A DNA stretch of 64,000 nucleotides. Origin: Candidatus Zixiibacteriota bacterium. GTDB lineage: Bacteria; Zixibacteria; MSB-5A5; GN15; PGXB01. Under the pieces are notes generated by a model. That model was not told the origin of the DNA. It saw only the letters and a program-made list of their open reading frames with translations, and made no database searches. The stretch spans positions 1 to 64,000 of the forward strand of contig JAFGTT010000009.1 in the NCBI GenBank assembly GCA_016933955.1, written 5' to 3'. The stretch's first letter is position 1. The number at the start of each line of letters is the position of its first letter. A program made the translations under genes and the position numbers. This document shows, in pieces, positions 53,945-57,627 of this stretch.

Positions 53945-54454
53945 TCAGCCAAAAACCTTAATGGCATCGCTGATAAATTTATCGGATATTTTCAAGCCGG
54001 ATTTGTTGGCGACCATCCGGTTGACGGCATAATCTATTTTATTGCTGCTGGGTGGTGAGATAAGTTCCACCATGACTCCATACCTCGCGAAACCTGCGAC
54101 ATTGGTGACTGTAAGAATCGGTTTGCCGCCGGCTTGTTTAAGAACTTTGGCCAGGGCGGCTTTGTCATTATCGGTGATCACCACCATCTGCGCTTCCGAA
54201 AAATCGTCATCTGCCGTGATGGTATTGATCTTGATATTAAATTTCCCGCCCGATTTTTTACCAGCCGCATCGGTCAAGGCCTGGGCGATTTTACCGTTAC
54301 CCACCACCGAAATAATGAATTTACCTCCGGTTCCCGAGGGCCAATCGACATTGTCGATGATATTAATTATAAATTCGGCCTCCTGGGCCGGAGTGACCTC
54401 TCCAAAGGCCGTCAGGACCAGACCAATAAATATAAAAATAGGGATCAGCTTTCT
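53945..54454 (-). CDS. YfiR-like (DUF4154) exported protein
   Basis: 169 residues from the ATG at 54454, with GGAG nine bases upstream. Signal peptide to about residue 24 (FGEVTPAQ). The mature protein begins with EAEFIINIIDNVDWP, the YfiR hallmark (FIxxIxxxVxWP), followed by the FIISVVGNGKIAQAL and QMVVITDNDKAALAKVLKQA strands of the family. In Pseudomonas, YfiR is a periplasmic repressor of the diguanylate cyclase YfiN; no cyclase is adjacent here, though the window has an HD-GYP protein. Single gene. Confidence 0.8.
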   Translation of the reverse strand, partial: RKLIPIFIFIGLVLTAFGEVTPAQEAEFIINIIDNVDWPSGTGGKFIISVVGNGKIAQALTDAAGKKSGGKFNIKINTITADDDFSEAQMVVITDNDKAALAKVLKQAGGKPILTVTNVAGFARYGVMVELISPPSSNKIDYAVNRMVANKSGLKISDKFISDAIKVFG

Positions 54455-54631
54455 CATTAATAGCGTCTCCATCAATATATCAAAACGCTCCAATTTCCCG
54501 TTCCCAATAATTATCGGCAAACGAGTTAAAATATAAACCCTACTCCATTAACCTCGTTAATGTTATTGACGGCAAATTCCGGTTGGACCACGCCTGATTA
54601 ATTACAGGCTGACAGGTGGTTAATTGGCAAT

Positions 54632-54663
54632 AAAAAACGGCCGATCAAAAATTCGACCGGCCG
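54632..54663 (-). terminator. Terminator after the HesB-like pair
   Basis: On the minus strand CGGCCGGTC and GATCGGCCG (54663-54655 with 54646-54638) form nine pairs, one of them G-U, with an eight-base loop, followed by six T. It closes the tandem HesB-like transcription unit. Confidence 0.85.
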
Positions 54664-54689: not shown

Positions 54690-55025
54690 TTATGATTCAT
54701 GGCCGCAGGTACCGCCGCAACCGGAGGCGCAGTTGTTATCTCCTACCGTTATGGAATAACCGCTACCCATAGCATTGGTGATATAATCGATTTTTATCTG
54801 ACCCATCTGCCTGATATAATCCTTCAGTTTGGGATCGATATAAGCGGTAATGTTATTCGAGTTTAAAACCTCAAGACCTTCCGTTGACTCATCCAGAGCC
54901 ATACCCAGCGAGGGTCCGCTTCAGCCGGCCCCCATGAAATACAGAATCAGTCCTTTGCCCTTATGGGCATCAGCATCAAGTACTTTTCTCAACTCAATAC
55001 TGGCCTTATCAGTCACTTCAAACAT
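54690..55025 (-). CDS. HesB/IscA-like selenoprotein with in-frame TGA
   Basis: 111 residues if TGA at 54921-54923 is read as selenocysteine (U35). Translation from the ATG at 55025 (AGGG eight bases upstream) is MFEVTDKASIELRKV, then LILYFMGAG-U-SGPSLGMAL, and on to a Cys-containing tail (Cys99, Cys103, Cys107) and TAA. The neighbouring paralogue has IGAG-C-SGPSLGMAL at the same place, and the reading frame is conserved at the residue level before and after the TGA. A six-pair stem with loop TGGAT lies at 54901-54885, a plausible bacterial SECIS. HesB-like proteins are a known selenoprotein family. IscA-type proteins carry iron-sulfur clusters or iron. Without Sec insertion the product would stop at 34 residues. 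Confidence 0.8.
54885..54901 (-). promoter_or_regulatory. Candidate bacterial SECIS hairpin
   Basis: TGGCTC (54901-54896), loop TGGAT (54895-54891) and GAGTCA (54890-54885) give six pairs, one of them G-U. The loop starts 25 bases after the TGA and has G at its second position, matching published rules for bacterial SECIS elements (small apical loop with an early G, about 16-37 nt from UGA). It lies within the coding sequence, as expected in bacteria. A smaller stem immediately after the TGA (ACCC/GGGT) competes with it. Confidence 0.55.
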
Positions 55026-55093: not shown

Positions 55094-55435
55094 TTATTCA
55101 TGATGTCCGGCGCAACCGGCACACCCCCCGGCTCCGCAATCACTATCACCGACTGAGATTTTGTACCCTTCACCATGTTCATTAGTAATATAATCAACTT
55201 TTATTTCGCCGATTTGATCCAGATATTCTTTCAATTTCGGTTCGATATAAGCGTTGATTTGATTCGAATTCAATTCGACCAAACCATCGGTTGAATCATC
55301 GAGAGCCATTCCCAACGACGGTCCGCTGCATCCGGCCCCTATGAAATAGAGAATCAGGTTTTTGCCTTTATTGGCCTCGGATTCCATCACCTTTTTCAGT
55401 TCAAGACTGGCTTTGTCGGATACCATAAACATCAT
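55094..55435 (-). CDS. HesB/IscA-like protein, cysteine paralogue
   Basis: 113 residues. FIGAGCSGPSLGMALDDSTD carries Cys36, the conserved first cluster-ligand position of HesB/IscA proteins. The expected C-terminal CGCG pair is replaced by a tail with Cys100, Cys105 and Cys108 and two final histidines. AAGGA six bases ahead of the ATG. It lies 68 bases upstream of the TGA-containing paralogue and ends in the same terminator, so the two are probably one transcription unit. Probable role: iron or Fe-S cluster carrier. Confidence 0.88.
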   Translation of the reverse strand: MMFMVSDKASLELKKVMESEANKGKNLILYFIGAGCSGPSLGMALDDSTDGLVELNSNQINAYIEPKLKEYLDQIGEIKVDYITNEHGEGYKISVGDSDCGAGGCAGCAGHHE

Positions 55436-55739
55436 TAATAATCCTTATTATTAAGTTAGTTAGTTATTTTAATAAAACGATTCAAAAAAACAAGTCATAT
55501 CGCCCAAAAATACGCATCAGAATCGCATTTCAGTCAGATAATCCCCCCTAATACGGTAAAAAGGCGGTGAAATTGGGTCGGAATTGTCGATTTGGCCGTT
55601 TTGGGGTTCTGCAGGGATGCCGGTGTTTTGGTCTATATCGCTCACAAGATCAGACCGCATAACATCTTAAAATAAAACGGACGGTTCGATGGACCGTCCG
55701 TTCAATCATACCAGATCAGTATATTGAGAGAGGAATTAT
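55436..55739. other. Spacer between the HDOD gene and the HesB-like pair
   Basis: About 300 bases with no gene. It holds the HDOD terminator at 55670-55701 and, nearer 55440-55500, AT-rich sequence that should include the promoter of the HesB-like pair. No clear -35/-10 pair is visible. Confidence 0.4.
55670..55701 (-). terminator. Terminator of the HDOD gene
   Basis: On the minus strand ACGGACGGT and ACCGTCCGT form nine perfect pairs around a seven-base loop, followed by TTTTATTTTAA. It stands 39 bases past the HDOD stop. Confidence 0.85.
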
Positions 55740-56852: not shown

Positions 56853-57488
56853 CTAATCGTTAATATGGCAACTCGAGAGGCCGCGTTTCTCGAGATATTG
56901 CTGGTGGTAATCCTCCGCCTTAAAAAAGACGCCAGCCGGGACGATTTGGGTAACAATCGGGCGCTTGTAAAGACCCTCCTGCTCCAGTTTCTTCAGTGAT
57001 TTTTCGGCCGCTTCTTTTTGTGGAGGATTATGACAGAAGATAACCGAGCGGTATTGGGTGCCAATGTCCGGACCCTGACGATTAGGAGTAGTGGGATCGT
57101 GATTCTCCCAGAAAACGTCCAATAACTGCTCATAGCTTACCCGGGCGGGATCAAAGATTACCTCGACGGCCTCGGCATGCCCCGTTTGCCCGGTGCAGAC
57201 ATCTTTATAATCCGGATTCTCGGTATGCCCGCCGGTGTAACCAACCGAGGTGGAAATAACCCCTTTAATCTGTCTGAAATTGGCCTCGACACCCCAGAAA
57301 CAACCAGCCGCAAAAGTAGCTTTTTCCATATTTTTATTCTCCATGTTATCGGTGTTTATTTGGGAGCCGGCTTCGGCATTTCCGGCTTTTTTATCCGCCG
57401 CCCGGAGGAACGCGGGTGCATATAAATATAGGGTTCCAAGTAATAATACCGCCATTAATCCCAGGATAGCCATTTTGACTTTTATCAT
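56853..57488 (-). CDS. msrA: Peptide methionine-S-sulfoxide reductase MsrA, exported
   Basis: 211 residues from the ATG at 57488 (AAGGAG nearby); a further upstream start is less likely. A hydrophobic segment at about 5-27 anchors or exports it. The MsrA core has [17 protein letters not shown] (nucleophile Cys in GCFWG), [18 protein letters not shown] and GTQYRSVIF, with a final SSCHIND. The catalytic residue is Cys, not selenocysteine. It repairs oxidised methionine in envelope proteins using SAM-independent thiol reduction. Confidence 0.93.
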
Positions 57489-57627
57489 AATGACTCCTTC
57501 CTCCAAAAACCGGTTACTTATAATCATATAACCAAATATTGGCCCGTTTTGCTCCATATTTGGGGAATTATTTTAATTTAATAGTAATCAAGAATGTCAG
57601 GCCGGGGAATATTGGCCTGTTCCGGAA

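Follow-up and report, generated by a model that had tools for sequence, protein, structure and literature searches.

A predicted HesB/IscA-like selenoprotein gene and its cysteine-containing paralogue in a genome of Candidatus Zixiibacteriota

A gene of the HesB/IscA-like (UxGP) family carrying an in-frame TGA codon was identified in a 64,000-nt stretch of a Candidatus Zixiibacteriota genome (contig JAFGTT010000009.1, positions 1–64,000; hereafter referred to as the window), and it is very likely a genuine selenoprotein gene of the Zixibacteria. The UGA is almost certainly decoded as selenocysteine (Sec), judging from (i) its conserved coding position, (ii) a SECIS hairpin placed 19 nt downstream and (iii) the presence of SelA, SelB, SelD and tRNA-Sec in the genome. 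Selenium would very probably occupy a key residue of this small iron-sulfur-type protein. Early surveys of bacterial selenoproteomes already recorded HesB-like selenoproteins, and the Sec gene is a well-supported addition to this known protein family, not a new kind of system. Modestly new are the phylum-wide retention of Sec, accompanied by a frozen SECIS, and two independent tandem or near-tandem Sec/Cys pairs derived from a Sec ancestor; a literature search found no paper on selenoproteins of Zixibacteria. The features of the locus are listed in Table 1.

Table 1. Features of the predicted Sec/Cys gene pair (positions in the window).
Feature	Position	Strand	Description
HesB/IscA-like selenoprotein gene (predicted)	54690..55025	(-)	111 aa, U35, stop TAA; read-through translation, NF038090 match, 82 distinct UGA relatives, IscA fold
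TGA, predicted Sec codon (U35)	54921..54923	(-)	aligned with TGC of the paralogue and the conserved CSG cysteine of AQ_1857 (1nwb); kept in 79/132 phylum genomes
Putative bacterial SECIS hairpin UGGCUC-UGGAU-GAGUCA	54885..54901	(-)	6 pairs, 5-nt loop, G at loop position 2; synonymous sites frozen in 82 sequences
Terminator-like hairpin after the Sec gene	54638..54663	(-)	11 pairs, T run
Cys paralogue	55094..55435	(-)	113 aa, TGC/Cys at the U position; upstream of the Sec gene, within one unit with it
Terminator-like hairpin of the preceding HDOD gene	55675..55703	(-)	upstream limit of the two-gene unit

The in-frame UGA and the SECIS hairpin

The Sec gene contains exactly one in-frame TGA, at codon 35 (54923–54921), and its read-through translation is MFEVTDK...YFMGAG-U-SGPSLGMALDES...CGHES*. 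Under the standard code the gene is truncated at this codon, and the sole listed ORF is a 70-aa frame that starts after the UGA. The UxGP motif, with Sec at the conserved Cys of A-type carriers, is present in the form USGP. The original prediction had placed the TGA opposite the TGC of the tandem paralogue, and the alignment of the two proteins (65–67% identity) confirmed this position.

With the read-through protein as query, 132 genomes of the phylum were searched, and orthologues were found in 79 of them, every one with TGA at the same codon (80 sequences, with two in genome G020). The same codon is also UGA in two relatives from records titled Deltaproteobacteria, which brings the total to 82 distinct sequences. 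Only four close relatives have Cys at the U position, all of them tandem or near-tandem paralogues, and genomes with the gene always retain Sec in at least one copy. Conservation of the UGA on this scale is far beyond chance.

Past the UGA, the gene differs from its relative in genome G087 at 8, 7 and 33 sites in the first, second and third codon positions, respectively, and the differences from three close relatives likewise fall mainly at third positions. This pattern indicates that the downstream frame is translated and under protein-level selection. The earlier claim that conservation continues on both sides of the TGA was upheld; instead of the random downstream frames expected of decay, the relatives keep both the UGA and an intact frame.

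The hairpin that had been noticed after the TGA, with six pairs and an early G in its loop, was found as described. On the minus strand it consists of the stem halves UGGCUC (54901–54896) and GAGUCA (54890–54885) enclosing the loop UGGAU (54895–54891), with 19 nt between the UGA and the stem and 25 nt between the UGA and the loop. The published model of bacterial SECIS elements (PMC13188914) specifies a loop of 3–9 nt with G in one of its first two positions, a stem of 4–16 bp, a loop located 16–37 nt after the UGA and a minimum folding energy of -7.5 kcal/mol or lower. The hairpin falls within these limits (5-nt loop, 6 bp, 25 nt, and -8.0 kcal/mol for the folded 25-mer), and it is conserved among the relatives. 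Of the 82 sequences, 65 form all six pairs and 81 form five or more; the loop reads UGGAN in 78. The third stem pair varies between G-U, A-U and G-C, is U-A once, and has a single exception among the 82.

The strongest evidence for the predicted SECIS is the choice of codons at synonymous sites. The Leu codon within the hairpin is CTG in 81/82 sequences, compared with 70/241 (29%) elsewhere in the same stretches, and the Glu codon is GAG in 80/81, compared with 30/154 (19%). The hairpin Ala codon is GCT in 61/62 cases (13/51 elsewhere) and the Thr codon is ACT in 18/18 (6/19 elsewhere). Fisher tests of this codon freezing gave p values from 1e-5 to 1e-36, which overstate the independence of these related sequences, while the within-gene contrast is plain. 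Raw folding energy was dropped as evidence, as it did not separate Sec and Cys copies: the 53 nt from the UGA onward fold no better than shuffled sequences (z -0.01), and comparison of the 82 sequences with synonymous shuffles gave a mean z of -0.8 (67/82 negative). Support for the SECIS therefore comes from the comparison of relatives. A search of four regions with Rfam at gathering thresholds found nothing.

Selenocysteine machinery of the genome

As had been pointed out originally, the window itself holds no sel genes; they are located on other contigs of the genome. The selA (486 bits) and selB (318 bits) genes are neighbours on contig C15, and contig C26 carries two selD genes (404 and 390 bits), the latter with UGA in the sequence SCAGUASKL. 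This UGA-containing selD (C26:108285–109199; locus L017, 1396–2448, minus strand) has the UGA at the catalytic position, and its product is predicted to be a selenoprotein itself. The other selD (C26:79615–80541; locus L016, 289–2529) has Cys in the SelD active site (GLGCACKL) and forms the rear part of a fused 746-aa ORF whose front part is a NifS-like cysteine desulfurase domain, identified by visual inspection and not by profile search.

The tRNA-Sec gene was detected in 104 of the 129 phylum genomes searched, 42 genomes having tRNA-Sec and no Sec gene of the type described here. In the genome under study, the Rfam tRNA-Sec search gave nothing above the cut-off, ARAGORN classified the eight best candidates as ordinary tRNAs (Ser, Leu and others), and the same program reported no tRNA-Sec in the selA/selB and selD regions. 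The absence of tRNA-Sec was nevertheless rejected when the tRNA-Sec of genome G086 served as a DNA query: its positions 1–32 match the first bases of contig C35 (L124), and positions 39–92 match the end of contig C10 (L123), both with 100% identity and both in the strand of the query. ARAGORN called tRNA-SeC(tca) on the computed junction of the two halves, whether or not these were overlapped by 2 bases. The break point is located in the long variable arm, and a few bases may be missing. Standard searches missed the gene because it is split over two contig ends, and its recovery removes the only apparent obstacle to the reading of UGA as Sec here. All four components whose presence was to be checked (selA, selB, selD and tRNA-Sec) are thus encoded there. 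In practical terms, the Sec gene is cut at its UGA by the standard code, and an assembly break inside the tRNA-Sec gene was enough to hide it.

These data bear on three other explanations of the TGA. Genetic codes with a sense UGA exist, and the codon might be recoded otherwise than as Sec, through a code in which UGA means Trp or Gly or through plain readthrough. This is very improbable, however: several orthologues use UGA as their stop codon, the alternative residue at the position is Cys, and the gene has its own SECIS in a genome with the complete Sec machinery. The intact Cys copy next to the gene invites the view that the gene is a redundant copy disrupted by a nonsense TGA, but the UGA is common to 79 genomes, most of them without a Cys copy, the third-position bias persists past it, and the hairpin is retained in UGA copies and lost in Cys copies, so that a pseudogene is hardly credible. 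A sequencing or assembly error, conceivable in a draft genome, has a negligible probability given that tens of assemblies produced independently show UGA at this codon, with protein identity down to about 37%.

The cysteine paralogue and the history of the pair

The Cys paralogue has NF038090 as its best family match (E 2e-14, under the curated cut-off) and contains a remnant of the SECIS, UGGCUC-UCGAU-GAUUCA, in which one pair is mismatched and the early loop G is missing. Its coding sequence differs from that of the Sec copy mainly at third codon positions.

A second pair was observed in genus g41 (loci L095, L096 and L099, in genomes G063, G064 and G062, respectively), where a Cys copy with the sequence MACSGPSLGL is located upstream of the Sec gene; the two genes are adjacent in G062 and G063, and about 5.3 kb separate them in G064. 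The hairpin is gone from the g41 Cys copies.

In a maximum-likelihood tree (86 sequences, 108 columns), in which the deep forks are weak and the two relevant forks are starred, the Sec and Cys copies of the window are sisters (97/90) within the Sec clade of their family. The three g41 Cys copies (G062–G064) are sister to the g41 Sec copies (98/92), far from the former pair. The distribution of Cys requires two changes on this tree, and a single change suffices in 0% of bootstrap trees. The tree therefore indicates that Sec is ancestral and that Sec-to-Cys copies arose twice, each upstream of a retained Sec gene. In all likelihood, the Cys copy of the window originated from a Sec gene by duplication, followed by a change of UGA to TGC and decay of the SECIS. 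Duplication with replacement of Sec by Cys produced such pairs on two occasions, once in this lineage and once in genus g41. In principle, the members of each pair may also have been drawn together in the tree by gene conversion between tandem copies, which would weaken the dating of the duplications.

A Sec-to-Cys conversion with a remnant SECIS has been reported for the HesB-like protein of Desulfitobacterium hafniense (PMC1794560, Figure 4). In both cases the Cys form derives from a Sec ancestor and a SECIS-like remnant follows the Cys codon, whereas here the Sec copy persists in tandem with the converted one. Sec and Cys forms of one protein in one genome are also found in Methanococcus maripaludis, where, in distinction from the present pair, the isoforms are methanogenesis enzymes with a demonstrated switch by HrsM (PMC11097638). 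The HesB-like selenoprotein of M. maripaludis has been labelled with 75Se and has no clear function, and its disruption left nitrogen fixation unimpaired (PMC11097638).

Selenium-dependent specialisation of the two copies might be envisaged. Without Sec, the second gene of the unit would yield only a 34-residue fragment and the first would still be fully translated, which suggests a backup role: the Cys copy may take over the activity whenever Sec is not produced or decoded, although this is less likely than not. The Cys copy may instead have no function connected with selenium, being a duplicate that is neutral or serves dosage, and the chances of this are a little short of even. It would fit the lack of a Cys copy in the closest relatives of the Sec gene (G079, G086 and G087), the occurrence of just two such duplications in 79 genomes, and the fact that no regulatory element was identified; the third-position bias between the copies, their location in one terminator-bounded unit and the independent appearance of the same layout in g41, with the Cys copy upstream, argue against it. 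What an IscA-like protein gains from Sec rather than Cys could be tested well on these two pairs, which occur naturally and independently within single genomes, one of them with a SECIS remnant that can still be read.

Family assignment and possible function

The best NCBIfam match of the Sec protein is NF038090 (IscA_HesB_Se; E 3.2e-18), with 65.9 bits against a curated cut-off of 85. It also scored below the cut-offs of TIGR01911 (40 bits, E 4.4e-10; cut-off 66.35), TIGR00049 (43.2 bits; cut-off 58.8) and Pfam Fe-S_biosyn (PF01521; 23 bits, cut-off 26.3). These scores place it on a divergent branch: motif, fold and E-value relate it to the HesB-like proteins, but it falls beyond the curated family limits. 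Its assignment to the HesB-like proteins as a known selenoprotein family, proposed at the outset, is borne out by the NF038090 match and by the listing of this family with the motif UxGP (PMC13188914). The Sec protein shares with the family (TIGR01911, HesB_rel_seleno; NF038090) the UxGP motif, its small size and the replacement of the carrier Cys by Sec, and differs in scoring under the curated cut-offs as part of a divergent Zixibacteria branch.

The structure model of the protein (mean pLDDT 81, with low confidence for residues 97–111) gave Foldseek top PDB matches to 1r94, 1x0g, 1s98 and 2d2a, all IscA or SufA folds, with a probability of 1.00. These matches include E. coli IscA, IscA with a [2Fe-2S] cluster (1x0g) and SufA, at a sequence identity of 13–31%. 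A profile search retrieved AQ_1857 (1nwb; E 9e-16) and E. coli IscA (1e-7). U35 is located at the conserved first cysteine of the carriers, and C99, C103 and C107 lie in the C-terminal tail. The C-terminal cysteines of IscA have the spacing CxC. The Sec protein therefore resembles IscA, SufA and ErpA (TIGR00049, PF01521) in its fold, first-cysteine position and possession of C-terminal cysteines, but differs from them in having Sec for Cys, in its low sequence identity and in the spacing of residues 99, 103 and 107, which is not CxC.

On this basis, the Sec protein somewhat more probably than otherwise acts as an A-type Fe-S or iron carrier. It would work like IscA, SufA and ErpA, holding an Fe-S cluster, iron or another soft metal, and the ligands would be the selenolate of U35, in place of the conserved first cysteine, together with the C-terminal cysteines. 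Weighing against this overall picture are the scores below the family cut-offs, the lack of adjoining isc, suf or sel genes, the variable neighbours across the phylum, the unclear role of the M. maripaludis HesB-like selenoprotein (PMC11097638), the 42 genomes that have tRNA-Sec but not the Sec gene, and the 32 genomes that have neither this gene nor a canonical A-type carrier.

The distribution of canonical A-type carriers was compared with that of the Sec gene. A TIGR00049 search of the genome found nothing except the Sec/Cys pair, i.e. no canonical carrier over the cut-off. Among the 15 genomes of the family (f1), ten have the Sec gene without a canonical carrier, three have both, two have a canonical carrier only and none has neither. 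The lack of a canonical carrier in 10/15 family genomes supports the A-type carrier reading at the level of the lineage. Across the 132 genomes of the phylum, 38 have both, 41 the Sec gene only, 21 a canonical carrier only and 32 neither, all these counts resting on incomplete draft genomes. A test across these 132 genomes rejected the idea that the Sec gene and canonical carriers exclude each other (p 0.38); a second search drew 129 genomes.

An appreciable possibility, somewhat below even, is that the protein is a true selenoprotein but a redox or metal(loid)-binding protein built on the IscA fold, and not an Fe-S carrier. The scores under the curated IscA-family cut-offs and the co-occurrence of canonical carriers in 38 of the 79 genomes with the Sec gene are in keeping with this, as is the lack of an isc/suf neighbourhood: no isc, suf or sel genes were seen adjoining the Sec gene at its own locus, no conserved operon with Fe-S genes was found around it, and its neighbours show no conservation at the phylum level. 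The retained IscA/SufA fold and ligand position, and the missing canonical carrier in ten of the 15 family genomes, this one included, speak for the carrier function instead. A more far-reaching version of the A-type carrier reading is improbable as a whole. It would make the Sec/Cys HesB-like proteins the only A-type carriers of this genome and of most of its family, render Fe-S delivery selenium-dependent, and cast the Cys copy as a backup under selenium limitation that has arisen repeatedly from Sec copies.

Two further genes of the window surround the unit on the minus strand. Upstream, beyond the HDOD gene, lies an MsrA gene (56853–57557) whose active site has Cys. A YfiR/HmsC-like (DUF4154) gene (53945–54520) follows the Sec gene, and a relative of it is also present downstream in loci L024, L033, L034 and L095.
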